Under the pieces are notes generated by a model. It had not been told where the DNA came from and ran no database searches. It saw nothing but the letters and a program-made list of their open reading frames with translations. 31,054 nucleotides of DNA from a virus: the IMG/VR virus record IMGVR_UViG_3300042465_002793, positions 1 through 31,054 of that record; one strand, given 5' to 3'. Below, one piece after another: positions 369-19,143 of the stretch. Each line of letters begins with the position of its first letter. Position 1 is the stretch's first letter. Both the position numbers and the translations under genes were made by a program.

Positions 369-3098
369 TTAGAATCTCCCGCGTTGTGCCATTGAACGCA
401 ATTTAATATCCGCAGAATAGCTATAAGTTACTGGAATTGCAAAGTTCCAGTTATTATTGCTGCCGCCGTTCACATTGCCATTAGTCGTATAAGCGTTCCA
501 TGTGGCTCCGCCAGTAGCATGACTGTCCGAAAGCGTCGTATAGCTTATCGAATTGGTTCCACTGCTATCGCTCAAATACCATGCCGCGCCCGCACTGGTG
601 CTATTAAGCGTGAGTTGATTACTTGCGGTGCCCGACACAGTAAATTGAGTCACTGTTTGCGTCGTTCCGGCGGTAAAAGTAATGGTCGCCGCCCCCGTGG
701 CAGTGTAAGTGCTTGTAATATCATAAAAAGTATTGCTTCCGGCGATAGTAAGCGCGCCTGCGCCAGCTTGATCTAAGGCAGGATAGGTAAACCCGCCGCC
801 CGTAAAAGTCTTTGCGGTAGCAGCGGACATTTTTATTGTTCCGGTGCCAGTGCAAGTAAAATTAGACCCAGACGCGCTCCAAGCCGACGCGCCAGCGCCA
901 GAGACGGTAAGCGCTTCGTTAGTCCCGAAATCAATTACGCGCGCGACGGACCCCGAGGTAGCAAATAGTCCGATAGTCGTTGTTTGATTATTTATGTCAA
1001 ACGTCCCCGCCGTTAACGTAAGCGTGCGAGTAGCGCCCTGCGCAAATGTGTCAGTAGATCTTACTGTCGCACCAGGCGCATTTACGGTAATTGGAAAATC
1101 AAGCGTTTTACCGGCGCTTGTTATCGTCTGAACGCCAGAAGTCGCGGCAAAAGTAGTCACGTTTGTGCCGCCAGATACAGTTGCGCCCGAACTAACAGTC
1201 AAATTTCCGTATATCGTCCGCGTGGAAACCGCAAAAGTTCCGCTGAATCCTGTAAGATTTAGATTTCTAACCTGTGACCCGCTAAATATTGAAAACGAAT
1301 CAGTTCCGGCCGTAACATTGAACGAGATAGAATTAGCTTCAGTTCCGCCAGATGTTGAACCGTGATAGATGCTGCGGCTGCCTGTCGAACCAGAATATGT
1401 TAGGTTGACGTTAGACGTGCCTAAAATAGTAAGATTATCGGCTATTCCCGTGTTCCATAAGGCAGCGAGATTTCCACGGTCAAGATTTATCTGCCCCGCC
1501 GCTCCAAAATCTATGGTTCGTGCGTTTGTATTTGCGCTAAGAAATGTGCTGCATGAAAGCGCAAATTCATTCAGATCAAATGTTCCATTTTGCAGCGCCG
1601 TTTGAACGACGCCTGTAACTACATTACTGTCTAAACGCACAGTTCCGTTAACAGTTTCAAATCTAAGTCCTTGCGTCATAGTAGACGTATTTGTGTTAAT
1701 TACCTGTGTGCGCCCTTGACCAGCAAATATTATTTGCGAGCCGCCAGAATTTGTAACCCGCGATGATAAAATAAAGTCCTGATAAATTGTCGGAGAATTC
1801 GTTGAACAAGTGAACGTAAATCCGGTTATTGTGCGTGCGGACGCGTTAAATGTTCCTAAATTTGCTGTTATATTAGCCGTAAGAGTGCTGGCGCTTGATT
1901 CGTCGATAATTAACGTGTCTTGAGCAAGCGGGAAATTATTAGTCGCGCCCGCAGTGCCTGACGTTAGTGACCATATATTAGCCGTCAAGAAATTAACGCT
2001 GCCCGATCCAACGAGATAAACAGTCCTGGCAACAGCCCCTGTTATATTGTCGTTGTTAAGGCAATCGCCAATGCGCGTTCCAGTCCACGGCCGGGCTACA
2101 GTGCCCGCAGCACCAATATCTCTAAAATCAAGATCCTGAAGAGTGCCTAGCGTGCCGTTCGCGTATAAAGTTCGACGCACACCAATCGTATCACTGCGAA
2201 ACATCATGCGACATGATGCGTTAGTGCTGGCACCATTTCCTAACGCCAGCGCGCCGGTAATAGTCTGATCCGCGTTAAACGTGCAAATTTCTAGCCCCGC
2301 CGATCCGCGCTGCGTGAACGTAAGATTGTTAGAGTACGTATTTGCGCCATTTACGGTAAGACTAACGCCGGCAGTGCTTGAGAATGTGACGTTATAATAC
2401 GTCAACCCACCACCCGAAAATACAGGGCTGGCGTTTGAGCAAGTTATAGTGGACGTATTTGAATTAAACGTAAGCCCAGTCGTCGTCGTAAACGTCCAAG
2501 CGGTCGCGCCAGAAATGGTCACGGTAGACGCGCCCAGCGTAACAGTGCGTGTATTGGAGTTGTTGGCGTCGAAAGTCACGACCGTTACAGACTGGCCGTT
2601 TGTGTTCAATGAGCCGTTCGTGACAGTCAAAATGCCCGTCGTTGTGCCGATAGCAAAAGCAGACTGTAAGGTCCAGCCGCCACCAACGCCGTCAAAAGTG
2701 ACATTGCCCGTCGTTAAGACGTTTCCTGCATAGCTAACAGTAATATTTTTGCCTGTCGCCGTGGCGTTAAACGTAATGTTGCCCGTATATGTCCGAGTAA
2801 AGTTTGACGACGGGAAAGATAAACTTCCGCTAACCGTAAACGCTGCGCTGCCGGCCAAGGTCATCGTCTGATCTAAGCCAGATGCCGTGACATCACGGCA
2901 GACTGCTCCAGTGCCAAGCGTCACCGTAAAAGGAGCGCTATTATCTGAGCTGGCGTCAAATATAACATCATCGGCGTTGGTCGGCGCGGCGGAGGCAGGT
3001 GTTACGCGCGCAAGATCCGTAAACCAATTAGTCGTCGTTGAACTGTCCCAAGTTCCTGTCGATGAGCCGCCGGACGGTCCCCAATACAAAGTCGCCAT
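369..3098 (-). CDS. Large repetitive beta-structured surface/tail fibre-like protein, 909 aa
   Basis: This 909-aa protein is very rich in Thr, Ser, Gly, Asn and Ala, with almost no Lys and few charged residues. It opens with MATLYWGPSGG and WDSSTTTNWF, a start seen in phage and bacterial surface proteins built of beta repeats. A module of roughly 100 residues near residues 156-260 recurs in diverged form near the C-terminus: NGSLNTNGQ versus AGTFDINNQ, RTVTLG versus RVIDFG, FSGGGLTYYNV versus FTGGGFTYPAL. A third partial copy (NGTFDLNEF then ARTIDFG) lies between them. The C-terminus ends in an Asn/Gly-rich segment and a basic tail (LRSMAQRGRF). I infer an elongated beta-solenoid on the virion surface, possibly host-binding. 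It lies two genes downstream of the tail spike. An enzymatic role is not visible. Confidence 0.75.
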   Translation of the reverse strand: MATLYWGPSGGSSTGTWDSSTTTNWFTDLARVTPASAAPTNADDVIFDASSDNSAPFTVTLGTGAVCRDVTASGLDQTMTLAGSAAFTVSGSLSFPSSNFTRTYTGNITFNATATGKNITVSYAGNVLTTGNVTFDGVGGGWTLQSAFAIGTTTGILTVTNGSLNTNGQSVTVVTFDANNSNTRTVTLGASTVTISGATAWTFTTTTGLTFNSNTSTITCSNASPVFSGGGLTYYNVTFSSTAGVSLTVNGANTYSNNLTFTQRGSAGLEICTFNADQTITGALALGNGASTNASCRMMFRSDTIGVRRTLYANGTLGTLQDLDFRDIGAAGTVARPWTGTRIGDCLNNDNITGAVARTVYLVGSGSVNFLTANIWSLTSGTAGATNNFPLAQDTLIIDESSASTLTANITANLGTFNASARTITGFTFTCSTNSPTIYQDFILSSRVTNSGGSQIIFAGQGRTQVINTNTSTMTQGLRFETVNGTVRLDSNVVTGVVQTALQNGTFDLNEFALSCSTFLSANTNARTIDFGAAGQINLDRGNLAALWNTGIADNLTILGTSNVNLTYSGSTGSRSIYHGSTSGGTEANSISFNVTAGTDSFSIFSGSQVRNLNLTGFSGTFAVSTRTIYGNLTVSSGATVSGGTNVTTFAATSGVQTITSAGKTLDFPITVNAPGATVRSTDTFAQGATRTLTLTAGTFDINNQTTTIGLFATSGSVARVIDFGTNEALTVSGAGASAWSASGSNFTCTGTGTIKMSAATAKTFTGGGFTYPALDQAGAGALTIAGSNTFYDITSTYTATGAATITFTAGTTQTVTQFTVSGTASNQLTLNSTSAGAAWYLSDSSGTNSISYTTLSDSHATGGATWNAYTTNGNVNGGSNNNWNFAIPVTYSYSADIKLRSMAQRGRF

Positions 3099-14075: not shown

Positions 14076-14257
14076 CCAAGCCCGTCCAGTAGCGCCCGAG
14101 CCTGCTCATGCGCGTGGCATAGCTGGTCGATCAGCTCGGACGGACACTCATCGTCCCCCGGAGTGGCCGCCCAGTCAAGGTAAAGTTCGACGGCCTCGGT
14201 CAGATCACCCAGATGTTTTAGGAATATTGGATACACGTTCAGCGAGGGAGACGACAT
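14054..14257 (-). CDS. Hypothetical acidic protein, 67 aa
   Basis: A 67-aa acidic helical protein includes HLGDLTEAVELYLDWAATPG and CPSELIDQLCHAHEQARALL. The frame overlaps the end of the primase-helicase by 53 bases, and no Shine-Dalgarno sequence precedes the only ATG. Translation by coupling or from a later alternative start (for example GTG at residue 8) is possible. The protein body beyond the overlap looks like a genuine coding sequence. No family recognised. Confidence 0.5.
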   Translation of the reverse strand: MSSPSLNVYPIFLKHLGDLTEAVELYLDWAATPGDDECPSELIDQLCHAHEQARALLDGLGYGSEPN

Positions 14258-16532
14258 TGTCTTTGTCTTTCAGTTCGCCGGTTATCGCGGCCAGTTCACG
14301 CCGCACGTCCGACCGGTTCCAGTCCGCCAGATGCGGTTTCACAAAACAATGCTTCTTTGACGGGAGATCTGACGAGTAGCAGAGCCCCTTGTCAACCCAG
14401 CCGGCTTCTTTCAACGCATGGAACAGCGCCGGGCGCACGACACGGGTCGCGTTGTCCATTGGATCGTTTAGCTTGGCCAGGAACGTGTGCCACGGCCCGC
14501 TGATAACATCGACGTTGAACGGCGCTTCGCCCTTTTCGATCATGTGATAGACATGGCTCTCGGCGTTACTCATGCCGACATAGATCAGTTTAGTCTTGTA
14601 TTCCGTCATGGGCGGGATCGCCTGCGGGTTGAACTTCGACACGTCCCGCGCACGCAGCCAGCCCGTCACGGCCTCGAAGCCGCCCTTGTGATACCAACCC
14701 CACATCGCCTGCGCCTCGCCGGGCGTCATCTTTGGCGCGTCGGACCACACACAGAACCATCGCCGGTCGTCGGAATCGAGCGTGATCGGCATGTCCTCGT
14801 TGGTGAACGCCAGCATGAAAAGGCGGTTGACCATCTGATAGGGGTGCAAGCCCTTGCGGTTGATGACCAGTGTCTCCGGCGGCGCGGCGATGATCGGCTT
14901 CAGCTTGTTCGCGAGCGCGCGGCGGTCCTTGGCGTCAGGTTCCTTCAGCTCATTAAGGACGACGATCTCCGACTCTAGCTGATAGCCCCATTGGCTCGTC
15001 AGGCTGTCGTTGTCAATCAGGCCCTTGTTTTTCTCATGCGGCCCACACACGCTCCATATAAACGGTGCCCACATGGTGTCCTTGCCGCAGCCGCCCTTGC
15101 CGCCGTGCAGGATCGCATGGTTGATCTTTACGTTTGGATGCTGGGCCTTATAGGCCATCACGTCCCATATATGCTCCAGCTCATGCTCTTCCGGCACAAG
15201 CCGCCGACAGTGGTCGATCCACCGCTGCGGGTCGCCGGCAGGGCCTTTGATCTCCGGCCGGGCGTCGCGCCACATGTTGCCGTAGACGAGCCCGTCCTTC
15301 GTGACCATCCAGTCTTCGCCGGCTGCGTAGGTCAGGCCGTGCAGGGCGTAAGCGCCCTTGTCCTCACGGAACGTGTCGAACCACGCCGACGCCTCGATGC
15401 GGCGCTTCTTACCTTCAGAATTAGAGACCACGCACTCCACGCCCTTGAACAAAGCGTTGAACGCCTTGCGGCTGATCTCGCTGCATGTGTGCCGGTCGAA
15501 GTAAGCGTCGTCGGAGATAATATAGGCGAAACGGTCATGCCATTCGCTGCGCGATTCACGGCCAGCCTGCTTGCGTTCCGTTTCGGCGATGATCTCGGCC
15601 GCCACGTCAGGGTTGGCTTTCGTCGGCTTCAGGCTGCTAAGCGGCTTCATCGCCTCAGCGATCAGTTCCTCGCGGATCCCCGGCCTGTGCTTTGGGCCGC
15701 CCTGCTCGGCGACCCAGTCGCAGAAATAGTTGCTGTCAAGATGTTCGCAGTGGCCATGGTAGCAACAGAACGCACGCGACTGCGGCATGTAGCGGGCTTC
15801 TAGCTGGCCGTCTGTATGCTCGGCATGGTTCGGGCACACGACGCCGCACCAGCCCTCACTGTTTACGCGCGACGTAACAAGCCCCTGCTCGTTGAGCCAC
15901 GCCAGCACGTCATCGCTTCCGGTATCCGTAAGACGTAAATGATTTGCGCGGCTGCTCTCTTCGTCGGGCGTAACGCCAAGCGCGGCGCATATTTCTTCTA
16001 ACGTATATTCTAGCTTCGAAAACTCTATTTCACGGCACTCGAACGCTTCGCGTCCAGGCTTGACATTTACGCTGCCCGGAAGACGACAGTTACGCACGGC
16101 GTTCGTCGCGCCCGGATCGGTGTAGCCTGCGCGTGCAATAGCTGACAGCGCGGCGCAATGCTGCTCAACCGTAGGTTGATCGCTGTAGGCATACCAATAT
16201 TGGAAGTTGCCGGGGCTCGTCTCAACGATAGCGGTCGGAGCGAGTGGCGGCGTCTTCGATTTCGTCCCGATGTCGTCCAGCATCATAAACAGAACATGTG
16301 TGCAGTTTGCCACGCTGGCGGACGGCTTGCCGTTCTTAAATCGGTCGATGATGAACGATCCGGTGTTGATGAACCAGCTATCGCCCTCACGGCGCTTATG
16401 CGACGGCATGTAAGCCGGCCATGTGTAGCGCGGCGTCCCGTCAGCGTGCAGCTTGCCGGTGTCGATCTGTTTGACGATCAGCGATGTCTCGCCTTCCGGC
16501 GCGAGCGAAGTAAAGTATTCAAAAAGTGTCAT
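14205..16532 (-). CDS. Primase-helicase (RepB-like primase plus SF3-type helicase), 775 aa
   Basis: This bifunctional replication protein appears to synthesise primers and unwind DNA. The N-terminal ~180 residues show a RepB-type primase signature: VLFMMLDD, PGNFQYWYAY and NAVRNCRLPGSVNVKPG. A Cys/His cluster at about 229-262 (GWCGVVCPNHAEH, FCCYHGHCEH) probably binds zinc. The C-terminal helicase (DUF5906-like) has a Walker A loop GGKGGCGKDT at about 477-486, an acidic strand EIVVLNELKE and FTNEDMPITLDSDDRRW, the sensor/arginine region. I chose the ATG at 16532 over one nine codons upstream because GAGGAA precedes it and it overlaps the PP-loop stop as ATGA. Confidence 0.9.
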   Translation of the reverse strand: MTLFEYFTSLAPEGETSLIVKQIDTGKLHADGTPRYTWPAYMPSHKRREGDSWFINTGSFIIDRFKNGKPSASVANCTHVLFMMLDDIGTKSKTPPLAPTAIVETSPGNFQYWYAYSDQPTVEQHCAALSAIARAGYTDPGATNAVRNCRLPGSVNVKPGREAFECREIEFSKLEYTLEEICAALGVTPDEESSRANHLRLTDTGSDDVLAWLNEQGLVTSRVNSEGWCGVVCPNHAEHTDGQLEARYMPQSRAFCCYHGHCEHLDSNYFCDWVAEQGGPKHRPGIREELIAEAMKPLSSLKPTKANPDVAAEIIAETERKQAGRESRSEWHDRFAYIISDDAYFDRHTCSEISRKAFNALFKGVECVVSNSEGKKRRIEASAWFDTFREDKGAYALHGLTYAAGEDWMVTKDGLVYGNMWRDARPEIKGPAGDPQRWIDHCRRLVPEEHELEHIWDVMAYKAQHPNVKINHAILHGGKGGCGKDTMWAPFIWSVCGPHEKNKGLIDNDSLTSQWGYQLESEIVVLNELKEPDAKDRRALANKLKPIIAAPPETLVINRKGLHPYQMVNRLFMLAFTNEDMPITLDSDDRRWFCVWSDAPKMTPGEAQAMWGWYHKGGFEAVTGWLRARDVSKFNPQAIPPMTEYKTKLIYVGMSNAESHVYHMIEKGEAPFNVDVISGPWHTFLAKLNDPMDNATRVVRPALFHALKEAGWVDKGLCYSSDLPSKKHCFVKPHLADWNRSDVRRELAAITGELKDKDNVVSLAERVSNIPKTSG

Positions 16533-17257
16533 CGTGTTTCCTCGCAGAATATTCCGCAATCTATCTGCATGTTCTTTAACGGCCTGCCCGTAGCGCCTTC
16601 TGGTAGCTCATCCAAAAACATGCGCTTGTTTTTATACCGAACCAACCGCACGCCAAGTTCGCGCGATTGCGCCGCGCGGTCGGCGTAAATTTCAGGATAT
16701 TCTTTACGCACTAATGACCAGTAGGTGGGCGACGTGGCCTTAACGCAACCGATACAGTTAGCATTCGGGAAACCTTTTCTGTAAATGCGCGGCGGTTTAA
16801 TACCGGCCGCCGAAATAATATTAAGACAATCCTGTTTTGTTAGCCCGGCGTCTATTAGCACAGGCAACACATTATCGCGCTCAGATAAAACGAATCGGTC
16901 GAACCTGTGCCGCTCGTCTATTGTAAAACCTAACACATGCCAGTCGGGATTGTTTATGCGCTCCCACTCCTGTCTCGCGCGTTTCTTCAACTCTATGGTG
17001 CAAGGCGCACCAAGAGGCCCTGACATAAAACGTCGATCTTGCCACACATCGCGCGCAGAACAAGAAGGATATTTACTGTTTGTGGCGCGTTCTATTTTTA
17101 CACCCAGCCATGTTTCAACATCACTTAAAAACCGTTCGTTGTCTTCGTCTTCCTCTACTACCGGGTTATTGACAACGCGAACGTCAGGATATTTTTCTAT
17201 TGTCAGCTTGGCGGCGACCGCGCTGGCAGCACCGCAAGAAAACCATACTGCAATCAT
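16529..17257 (-). CDS. PP-loop ATPase of the PAPS-reductase-like superfamily, 242 aa
   Basis: The N-terminus MIAVWFSCGAASAVAAKL is a PP-loop (S-x-G-x-x-S) that in this superfamily binds and adenylates a nucleotide substrate. The family includes PAPS reductases, DndC-type and tRNA-thiolation enzymes. Eight cysteines are present. The set Cys86 (APCTIELKKRA), Cys168 and Cys171 (ANCIGCVKA) and Cys234/238 (DCGIFCEE) is spaced as in metal- or Fe-S-binding relatives. The C-terminal tail of a true PAPS reductase (ECGLH) is not seen. The gene overlaps both the polymerase stop and the primase start by ATGA, so all three are probably made together. Nucleic-acid modification is my favoured reading over sulfur assimilation; unproven. 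Confidence 0.82.
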   Translation of the reverse strand: MIAVWFSCGAASAVAAKLTIEKYPDVRVVNNPVVEEDEDNERFLSDVETWLGVKIERATNSKYPSCSARDVWQDRRFMSGPLGAPCTIELKKRARQEWERINNPDWHVLGFTIDERHRFDRFVLSERDNVLPVLIDAGLTKQDCLNIISAAGIKPPRIYRKGFPNANCIGCVKATSPTYWSLVRKEYPEIYADRAAQSRELGVRLVRYKNKRMFLDELPEGATGRPLKNMQIDCGIFCEETR

Positions 17258-19143
17258 TTCCCATACCTCTCCATCACGCTCGCTTCTACGTCGAGCGGCA
17301 ATCCTGCGGCCCAGAACGGCGGCGTTGTCATCACTTCTTCTAATCTTGCTTTGGCTTCTTCCGGCTGGTCAGTCTCAATAACGATTTCGTCGTGAACATG
17401 CAGAACCACACCGTCAAGACGGCGAAGAGCCTCACGAAGAAGGTCATGGGCGGTCGCTTGTGTGACGTTCTCACAAGCCAAGCCGGGCCATAGACGCGCA
17501 CGGGGCCATTCCTTCGCATCTGCGGCAGGCTTCCATGACGCCTTCGCGTATGTAATGCCGCCATCGTCTTCAAATCGGGCGAACGGATAGCAAAGCACAC
17601 GGCCTGACGGCAGGCAATACCAAAGATGCTTACCATCTGCGAGGTAGGTTATCTTTCCTGCGTTGAACTCTTTTCCTTTGTTGCGCAGCGCACGAATGTA
17701 CGCAATCTCCAGATCACGCCAGAACGGCGGAGCCCAATCGTTCGCCAGCCGCCAGCCGTTCACCATCTTGCGCGCCTGCGGCTCGGGCAGGTTAACGCCA
17801 TATACGCGACCCATGGCGGCGAACGCGCCGATACCGCCGCCGAATCCGCAGGCCAGCTCCTGCACCTTTCCGATCTGACGCTGTTCCTTGTTCACGTCGT
17901 CATATGACACGTTGAATGTCTTCGCGGCATTGACTTTGTAAACGTCGAGACCTTCACGGAAATGCTGTAGCTTCTTGTCGCCTCTGTCGGACAGCCACGG
18001 ATTGACGCGGCCCTCGATGGCCGACCAGTCAGCGACGACGAGCGAAGAACCTTTGGCCGGAATCAGAGCGGGCCGCAGCATACCACGCAATACGTCTGTA
18101 ACGCGCCGTCCGTATTTCGGCACGATGGCGTGACCTCGCACCATCGCGTGTCGCACGCTGGCGGGATCATCTGCGCATTTACGTGTAAAGTTGTGAACCT
18201 GCGCGCCGTAACTAGACGCGCGTCCTGTGGCGGATCCACCGGCAAAGACAAAAGCGCCTCTAACGCGACCGTCAGCGCAAGCCAGATTGCGAAGACGATC
18301 AAACTTTGCCACGCTCGACGCCCAAAGGTCATCGGCGCACTGTATGACTTCTTTAACATCGGGGGGCACCTCTTCCGGGTCATCTATGGCCAGCAGATTA
18401 GCGCGGACAGTCTTGTCAATCGACATCTTGTCCTCGCGCTGCATGAGCTTCAGCGCTTCGGGGCCAAGTCTATTTTGCACCCACAGCCGCATTCGAGGAC
18501 TTCGAACGCTCGTAACCTCTCCGCCCGTGATCTCGACAACCGCAGCCTCGATCTCTCGAAGCTCGTCAGCCGCGTATTTGACCGCCGCGCTGCATAGATT
18601 GATGTCGACAAGAACGCCACGATCATTAATGCGCTCGTTAACATGGTAGTCCTCCAGTTCCTCGGGAGTCAGTTCACGCATCGCCTGACTGGCGGCGCGC
18701 ATGGTCCGCACGTCCTGCTCGCAGTATTCTATCAGCTCGGGCAGCAGCTCGGTATTGAAGGGCGGCATACAGCACTTGCGGACGAGATACGCGCCGCGAT
18801 GATCCTTACGCATCGACAGTCCGGCGAATCGGCCAACGTCTTCAAGACTGCCCGGCGCACAGTTCGCCCGCGCCTGCGCGGCGGTGCAGTAGAACTGCTC
18901 TAATGGTATGTCCATGCCCAGCACATGCCAGAAGATCAGACGTTCGAACGCAGCGTTATGCGCGCGTATCTGACCGCGCACATTTGGCATGGGCTCGCCC
19001 GGCCGCCACGTCATCACAGGCCCATCGTTGAAGGCGTAGGACATGCACAGCACGCGGGTCGACGGGTGACTGGCGTAGTTGTATACGCCCGCCTCCGGTA
19101 GATCGCATTCGCTGGCAGTCTCGAAATCAGTCCAGAAGATCAT
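17254..19143 (-). CDS. Family A DNA polymerase with 3'-5' exonuclease, 629 aa
   Basis: The replicative polymerase has an exonuclease domain at its start: Asp6 and Glu8 in WTDFETAS, HNAAFE at 62-67 and YCEQD (Tyr140/Asp144). The polymerase motifs follow: TGRASSYGAQVHNF at 306-319, motif A DWSAIEGR at 372-379, motif B KEQRQIGKVQELACGFGGG around 419-437 and motif C HVHDE at 582-586. No 5' nuclease domain is present, which is normal for phage enzymes of this type. It matches the bacteriophage-type PolA group rather than T7 gp5 closely. It starts 17 bases inside the exported small gene's end and overlaps the PP-loop gene by ATGA. The phage clamp-like protein may be its partner. Confidence 0.95.
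   Translation of the reverse strand: MIFWTDFETASECDLPEAGVYNYASHPSTRVLCMSYAFNDGPVMTWRPGEPMPNVRGQIRAHNAAFERLIFWHVLGMDIPLEQFYCTAAQARANCAPGSLEDVGRFAGLSMRKDHRGAYLVRKCCMPPFNTELLPELIEYCEQDVRTMRAASQAMRELTPEELEDYHVNERINDRGVLVDINLCSAAVKYAADELREIEAAVVEITGGEVTSVRSPRMRLWVQNRLGPEALKLMQREDKMSIDKTVRANLLAIDDPEEVPPDVKEVIQCADDLWASSVAKFDRLRNLACADGRVRGAFVFAGGSATGRASSYGAQVHNFTRKCADDPASVRHAMVRGHAIVPKYGRRVTDVLRGMLRPALIPAKGSSLVVADWSAIEGRVNPWLSDRGDKKLQHFREGLDVYKVNAAKTFNVSYDDVNKEQRQIGKVQELACGFGGGIGAFAAMGRVYGVNLPEPQARKMVNGWRLANDWAPPFWRDLEIAYIRALRNKGKEFNAGKITYLADGKHLWYCLPSGRVLCYPFARFEDDGGITYAKASWKPAADAKEWPRARLWPGLACENVTQATAHDLLREALRRLDGVVLHVHDEIVIETDQPEEAKARLEEVMTTPPFWAAGLPLDVEASVMERYGK

Follow-up and report, generated by a model that had tools for sequence, protein, structure and literature searches.

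Phage genes annotated as 3′-phosphoadenosine 5′-phosphosulfate (PAPS) reductases are often read as part of sulfur metabolism (e.g. PMC8879888; this and all later papers are cited from excerpts), although a second look at their function has already been urged by authors who consider that the role of such homologues may extend beyond sulfur metabolism, and that those found in phosphorothioate (PT) systems presumably take part in modifying DNA (PMC11437467). In addition, one paper, with reference to Piel 2022, credits a vibriophage PAPS reductase with a part in phage defence against Dnd (PMC10945359). Here we consider a 242-amino-acid (aa) open reading frame (ORF) with an ATG start, at 16529-17257 on the minus strand of the IMG/VR virus record IMGVR_UViG_3300042465_002793, a sequence of 31,054 bases that could be a fragment and that is referred to below as the window. 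A first-pass annotation, made from the sequence alone, had described its product as a PP-loop enzyme, related to PAPS reductases and placed between a DNA polymerase and a primase-helicase, that might add sulfur to DNA or tRNA. Our best reading, to which we assign a probability of roughly 0.6, is that the gene encodes a sulfurtransferase like the phage protein PptA, which would be fed by the cysteine desulfurase IscS and would sulfurate phage DNA, probably as phosphorothioate camouflage. That the ORF is a genuine gene we regard as certain, on the basis of relatives encoded on at least 532 viral-contig stretches; these, together with 20 loci in species genomes, come from scans and are counted among the matches listed, a set that may lack the window's nearest records.

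The closest match in the Protein Data Bank (PDB), searched by sequence with phmmer, was chain C of entry 21fy, ‘PptA’ (5.7e-49, residues 4-241), a match that reached 1.2e-61 with a 52-row family profile. Over the 234 PptA query residues, identity with a Vibrio phage vB_VhaP_VH-5 gene is 100%. Since the sequence group of E. coli IscS contains 21fy alongside 1p3w, the entry brings together phage PptA and the host cysteine desulfurase; a literature search returned neither a meaning for the name PptA nor a paper on 21fy. On the family profile, VH-5 PptA scores 211.8 bits and ten other members (nine from phages, one a bacterial-genome protein) 158-425 bits, while other PP-loop proteins reach at most 20.3 bits (SspD 18.4, NinC 9.5, one of three DndC proteins 1.3), and CysH and E. 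coli TtcA were not listed at E up to 100 (Z=5000). The 242-aa gene is, by these matches, a member of an already known phage PP-loop family that includes VH-5 PptA, its one member with a solved structure. Members of this family commonly go under the older name: the window protein matches phrog_424 (1.7e-45), in which, as in many records, members are called PAPS reductase, and Vibrio phages 168E36-1 and 236O40-1, annotated in the same way, carry PptA-like proteins. NCBIfam gave only a chance-level match for the 242-aa protein. At E up to 1e-3, 88 phage records match, 22 of which cover at least 80% of the query. Annotation of the family is uneven: weak or full members in MG944221, OL549190, MK112532, PP003917 and similar records are labelled ribonucleotide reductase, tRNA methyltransferase or integrase, and in Synechococcus phage S-SRP01 (L018:8001-8764) the annotated start lies 218 bases inside a two-piece match, which may reflect a frameshift or a wrong start.

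The SCGAAS PP-loop, the CIGC motif and the eight cysteines that the first-pass annotation had listed are all present in the protein. Six of these cysteines (C86, C144, C168, C171, C234 and C238) are invariant among the 52 aligned sequences, C8 is conserved in at least 90% of them, and C66 falls in neither list. By cross-family alignment, C86, C168 and C171 correspond to Cys146, Cys280 and Cys283 of DndC, which are described as cluster ligands common with adenosine 5′-phosphosulfate (APS) reductase (PMC12193691), and the three residues probably hold a [4Fe-4S] cluster. In the same alignment, where the PptA-like family has GA.CT..[LM]K, SspD and DndC have RWCT..[LM]K and APS reductase has CC..RK; similarly, N-C-[IV]-G-C stands opposite GC..C. 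Before a conserved Arg, PptA-like proteins have D-E or variants of it, with D-E also in SspD and NinC, as against Q-S or Q-A in CysH and APS reductases (CysH/APSR). The C-terminal tails likewise differ, with C-x-x-x-C in PptA-like proteins, CxxC in SspD, SCSESC in NinC and ECG[LI]H in CysH/APSR. The earlier statement that no ECGLH-type tail is seen was misleading in this respect, as the window protein ends in DCGIFC ([DE]CGxxC in 99 of 102 members), which aligns with the ECG[LI]H of CysH/APS reductases without being identical to it. The predicted structural model (mean predicted local distance difference test score, pLDDT, 90.3; residues 229-242 are the only stretch below 50) has a CysH-like PP-loop fold. 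PAPS/APS reductases take the top rows of the fold search at Z 11.6-13.9, GMP synthase, LarE, TtuA and NcsA lie at about 10-12, and the best BFVD match is another phage PAPS reductase model. Because the fold library runs to 8 April 2026 and the rows displayed do not include 21fy, these lists neither support nor exclude 21fy.

In a first phylogenetic tree of 37 rows, 16 PptA-like rows, PptA included, form one clade at 100/100, with CysH/APSR apart at 100/99 and NinC as sister of the PptA-like clade at 87/73. A second tree of 32 rows keeps the PptA-like clade at 100/99 and again sets CysH/APSR apart, but the deep order is lost, PptA-like proteins, NinC, SspD and DndC forming a polytomy (in these trees DndC was trimmed to its first 330 residues, CysH/APSR were represented by four rows, and long branches are present). 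Clear membership among CysH-type enzymes was what the first-pass annotation had named as its refutation; the 242-aa protein instead scores 19.9 bits against Pfam PAPS_reduct, under the gathering cut-off of 22.5, reaches 5.4 bits (E=2.9, Z=5000) with a CysH/APSR profile, and stands outside the CysH/APSR clade; it is probably not an enzyme of sulfate metabolism. Its sole PADLOC match was SspD (1.2e-6, residues 7-194). No DndC profile match was obtained at E up to 1, on which ground DndC was rejected. SspD was also the best match for four of five other members (the fifth had none) and for lambda NinC; as controls, E. coli CysH matched SspD at 0.0063 and TtcA had no match at all. A match to a PT-system profile is weak by itself, and it is the clade, the cysteines and PptA that carry the argument. 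With SspD as the only PADLOC match and PptA as the closest solved protein, the proposal of a PP-loop enzyme nearer to those that put sulfur onto nucleic acids than to CysH is upheld, and the class of chemistry is right as far as can be judged.

The genomic position of the gene was then considered. The ATGA overlaps described earlier are indeed present at both the polymerase and the primase/helicase junctions, each neighbour sharing 4 nt with the 242-aa gene. However, 4-nt overlaps occur in 7 of 34 same-strand neighbour pairs (39 window genes, from a list chosen by hand), so that those of the 242-aa gene are ordinary, and we dropped the idea that they are meaningful in themselves. That they make the gene a fixed part of a replication unit, as had been supposed, is likewise not supported: in three close relatives (L161, L171 and L173), whose polymerase is 99% identical to that of the window over the part present, polymerase and primase are joined directly by one ATGA, without the gene. 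A scan with the window polymerase gave 14 loci, 13 of them also with a primase, and a PptA-like gene lay between the two in 0 of 13. Among the 96 family members having both neighbours, 14 (window counted) show the order polymerase, gene, primase. The 242-aa gene is shown by such sequence comparisons to be optional cargo between polymerase and primase.

A wider survey of relatives yielded, among the matches listed, 185 locus entries with both polymerase and primase, corresponding to 142 distinct junctions, whose classes were set by hand from clusters and profiles (one cluster, with a shared out-of-frame start, was split by profile). The slot is empty in 97 of these (gap up to 90 nt, and exactly 0 in 36), and otherwise contains PptA-like genes (12), SspD-like genes (2), a third type of PP-loop gene (2), a Mom-like gene (1), HNH/NUMOD genes (18), other genes (7) or an unknown family of about 233 aa (3, one of them plus an HNH gene). 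Some of the 12 PptA-like junctions came from searches anchored on the 242-aa gene itself; the 133 junctions anchored on polymerase or primase comprise 94 empty, 7 PptA-like, 2 SspD-like, 2 third-type PP-loop, 1 Mom-like, 2 of the ~233-aa family, 18 HNH/NUMOD and 7 other. The two SspD-like slot genes (L191 and L247) match SspD at 1.0e-43 and 2.8e-47 and are placed as sister of SspD at 95/93. With 26.1-26.4 bits, the Mom-like slot gene (L165:7887-8330) narrowly misses the cut-off of 27.1. In phage Mu, Mom is an enzyme that modifies DNA and so counters restriction. A second Mom-like protein, found only through its likeness to the first, is encoded in another relative of the window phage (L218:1976-2422, minus strand). 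The proteins of the ~233-aa family (L159:6809-7510, minus strand; L179:4791-5489; L189:6833-7594) have a constant C-terminal and a variable N-terminal half; that of L159 has no Pfam match, and matches phrog_15934 (unknown) at 1.6e-5.

PP-loop genes are found on either side of this polymerase. At 174 loci (L161-L334), 1,249 distinct ORFs reach 100 aa or more; five PP-loop profiles, at 1e-5, matched 15 of them, and all 15 adjoin the polymerase, 10 downstream and 5 upstream. The upstream genes, classed by profile only, are PptA-like (L249:4250-5017), NinC-like (L214:4136-5017 and L334:1740-2657) and SspD-like (L196:3769-4500 and L202:4285-5004). Polymerase-adjacent places account for 160 ORFs, and there were no PP-loop matches among the 965 other placed ORFs, once 34 ORFs without a placed polymerase and 90 that are the polymerase itself had been set aside. 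In the same loci, 21 of 37 HNH ORFs, 0 of 9 ORFs resembling either of two C5-methyltransferase queries and 1 of 2 Mom-like ORFs are adjacent, and the difference from PP-loop genes gives p=0.002 for HNH and p=8e-7 for the methyltransferase-like ORFs (Fisher, shared descent ignored). Seven of the 15 PP-loop genes belong to a single PptA-like lineage in one slot, which brings the independent events down to about six when counted by class and side, and since the loci reach about 5 to 6 kb either side of the polymerase, PP-loop genes farther away would be missed. Beyond this phage group the family has no set location: among 57 family representatives (80% identity), a polymerase of two query types occurs in 6 loci and is adjacent in 4 (expected 0.57). 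Since PP-loop enzymes of more than one kind lie next to this polymerase, a tie between such enzymes and DNA synthesis is likely, in another sense than that of the overlaps; with several kinds of PP-loop gene adjoining the polymerase, the first-pass annotation was perhaps right about replication, for another reason than the one given.

The same counts bear on the suggestion that the place beside the polymerase is a mere insertion hotspot, uninformative on function and compatible with any of the other readings. This has in its favour that more than half of the placed HNH ORFs sit there too and that most junctions are empty, but it does not readily account for the higher adjacency of PP-loop genes than of HNH or methyltransferase-like genes, nor for the presence of several PP-loop subfamilies on both sides of the polymerase, and we consider it credible but unlikely.

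In the reading that we prefer, host IscS would provide persulfide sulfur to the PptA-like enzyme, IscS being proposed as donor because it shares entry 21fy with VH-5 PptA, the one family member for which an association with IscS is known. The flexible C-terminal CGxxC tail may then deliver the persulfide to the active site, in a movement like that of the C-terminal Cys in CysH, which swings in. There, the C86/CxxC site with its putative [4Fe-4S] cluster would act with the PP-loop to activate and sulfurate nucleic acid, ATP activating the DNA phosphate (or a base). Expression beside the polymerase would allow DNA to be marked during copying, and sulfurated phage DNA, most likely phosphorothioate, might pass as ‘self’ or resist PT-based or other restriction. 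Three observations make DNA the likeliest target: SspD and DndC, the closest relatives with a name, have DNA as their substrate; SspD-like and Mom-like genes can occupy the slot as well; and PP-loop genes cluster around the polymerase. A bolder version, which we regard as speculative and rather doubtful, is a replication-coupled DNA phosphorothioation by one protein, in which a single IscS-fed enzyme would do the work of SspBCD or DndCDE. The adjoining phage polymerase and primase would provide open or single-stranded DNA, and such coupling would have left its mark on the genomes in the repeated, apparently independent capture of PptA-, SspD- and NinC-like enzymes and of a third PP-loop enzyme directly beside the polymerase gene; in its most extreme form, sulfur would be put on DNA precursors that are then used by the polymerase.

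Partner genes were sought in seven records (the window, VH-5, RHph_N65 and four related contigs), some of which are fragments. Neither PF00266 (cysteine desulfurase) nor DUF4007/SspB nor SspC (one model) was found in any of them. In controls, PF00266 matched in 14 of 14 genomes, and DUF4007 and the SspC model in none, while DUF4007 was detected in 4 of 4 SspD-bearing genomes and the ORF adjoining one SspD matches the SspC model. The earlier observation that the window holds no other dnd-like gene agrees with these results: none appeared among ten other ORFs compared with PADLOC (DndD and DndE were not searched individually), and DUF4007 and the one SspC model were without match across the 31-kb record.

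Several points weigh against our preferred reading. Known PT systems require further components: PT of the Ssp type cannot do without nicking by SspB (PMC8092258), and SspB and SspC were not found in 7 of 7 records (with one model used for SspC). DNA as the substrate is something that we infer, and the co-presence of PptA and IscS in 21fy could mean another relation, such as inhibition. The deep order of PptA-like proteins, NinC, SspD and DndC is not stable between trees, and PT-enzyme profiles in PADLOC lack specificity: E. coli CysH matches BrxP (the PAPS-reductase of type-4 BREX) at 4.9e-11, more strongly than the window protein matches SspD. HNH genes favour polymerase-adjacent places as well (21 of 37), and in other phages no constant partner accompanies the gene: neighbours vary among the 57 representatives and include RNA polymerase, MazG/ribonucleotide reductase and terminase genes. 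Furthermore, coral phages are described as infecting hosts with and without Dnd, and the gene seemingly confers no resistance on them (PMC10945359). As for candidate partners, no gene cluster occurred in more than 6 of the 57 representatives within 7 kb, and a C5-methyltransferase family found near the gene in 6 of 57 did not go beyond what could be called chance.

The enzyme might instead act on tRNA, passing sulfur from IscS to host or phage tRNA in the manner of TtcA, MnmA or ThiI, and so repair or retune translation during infection. IscS feeds tRNA thiolases, and MnmA, TtuA and NcsA appear in the fold lists. On the other side, E. coli TtcA is absent from the family-profile results, the nearest named relatives act on DNA, the gene adjoins a DNA polymerase in this phage group, and a 242-aa PP-loop protein would have little room for an added tRNA-binding domain; we judge a tRNA target improbable. 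We also give little credence to a decoy or inhibitor, which would bind IscS or mimic DndC or SspD and starve host phosphorothioation or other sulfur paths while modifying nothing itself. Co-presence with IscS in 21fy is the sole structural fact and would suit such a role, as would the failure to find SspB and SspC alongside (seven records, one SspC model), but a pure binder would not need the conserved PP-loop, CT..LK, CxxC and C-terminal Cys pair, and the loss of host PT marks turns DndFGH or DndI on the host, so that the phage is not spared (PMC11662687). Finally, a role as auxiliary PAPS/APS reductase, by which sulfate assimilation would be increased and for which the database names, the fold and the ECGLH-like tail might speak, is very improbable given the sub-threshold Pfam score, the separate CysH/APSR clade, the low CysH/APSR profile score, the D-E before the conserved Arg that is shared with SspD and NinC, and the company of IscS in 21fy. 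Sulfate reduction is not known to use IscS. A sulfate-assimilation auxiliary metabolic gene was accordingly rejected as a candidate on the grounds of clade, Pfam cut-off and motifs.

The positions of the gene, its motifs and its neighbours are collected in Table 1. Elsewhere in the window, the PADLOC scan of ten other ORFs gave matches for two only: one is a Cas4/DruK-like nuclease, and the other, an SNF2 helicase, matches 35 PADLOC helicase families (25 displayed), PbeA included at 4.6e-6. A 909-aa protein rich in Thr, Ser and Asn (369-3098, minus strand) had no PHROG or Pfam match at the limits used and is perhaps a tail fibre or adhesin.

Table 1 Positions of the PptA-like gene, its sequence motifs and its flanking genes in the window.
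Feature	Coordinates	Strand	Evidence
Putative PptA-like PP-loop sulfurtransferase gene, 242 aa	16529..17257	-	ORF; phrog_424 1.7e-45; 21fy 5.7e-49; pLDDT 90.3; trees
PP-loop motif SCGAAS, residues 7-12	17222..17239	-	52-sequence alignment; cross-family table
C86-T-x-x-L-K motif, with probable [4Fe-4S] ligand C86	16985..17002	-	Common to SspD/DndC/NinC; DndC ligands from PMC12193691 (excerpt)
C144, absent from aligned SspD, DndC, NinC and CysH/APSR rows	16826..16828	-	Invariant in 52 sequences
C168-I-G-C171 (CxxC), probable [4Fe-4S] ligands	16745..16756	-	52-sequence alignment; cross-family table
C234-G-I-F-C238 tail, candidate persulfide relay	16544..16558	-	Low-confidence model end; alignments
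DNA polymerase, 629 aa, one wall of the slot	17254..19143	-	phrog_17 1.8e-89
Primase/helicase, 775 aa, other wall of the slot	14205..16532 (from ATG)	-	phrog_1156 1.2e-19; Pfam RepB_primase + DUF5906
ATGA overlap, polymerase stop/PptA-like gene start	17254..17257	-	Junction sequence
ATGA overlap, PptA-like gene stop/primase start	16529..16532	-	Junction sequence

Taken together, these analyses indicate that one large family of phage ‘PAPS reductases’ belongs rather with IscS-linked sulfurtransferases. If DNA is the target, a single gene would give phages a sulfur mark of their own against phosphorothioate-based defence. It would, in that case, also point to a possible function for NinC of lambda, a protein not required for plaque formation (PMC10695390). 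Phages with near-identical polymerases that have or lack a slot gene provide a ready-made comparison.

Among known systems, CysH and the APS reductases have in common with the window protein the PP-loop fold, and their ECG tail aligns with its own (APS reductases also have a CxxC); it differs from them by the separate 100/99 clade of those enzymes, their Q-S or Q-A motif and their substrate, PAPS or APS. DndC has RWCT..[LM]K and CxxC at corresponding positions, but is more than twice as long and lacks a C-terminal Cys pair at the aligned place. SspD likewise has CT..[LM]K, CxxC, DE..R and a C-terminal Cys pair (CxxC, as against CxxxC in the window protein), and the Ssp system obtains its sulfur through a cysteine desulfurase, SspA or IscS (PMC8092258); the PP-loop of the window protein, S.G..S, is not of the SGGKDS form, however, and the protein lies outside the SspD clade. 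Lambda NinC (L116:2582-3454), which scores 1.2e-89 with phrog_424 and best with phrog_33262, has the GA.CT..LK, NC[IV].C.K and C-terminal CxxxC motifs and an hhalign probability of 94.6%, whereas its PP-loop reads SGGRTS, it lacks C144, and it is distant on the family profile (9.5 bits). The nearest solved counterpart is VH-5 PptA: although the two are 39% identical and the VH-5 gene comes after a phage RNA polymerase rather than a DNA polymerase, they are homologous over nearly their full length, with all seven conserved cysteines aligned, and fall within the same 100/100 clade.

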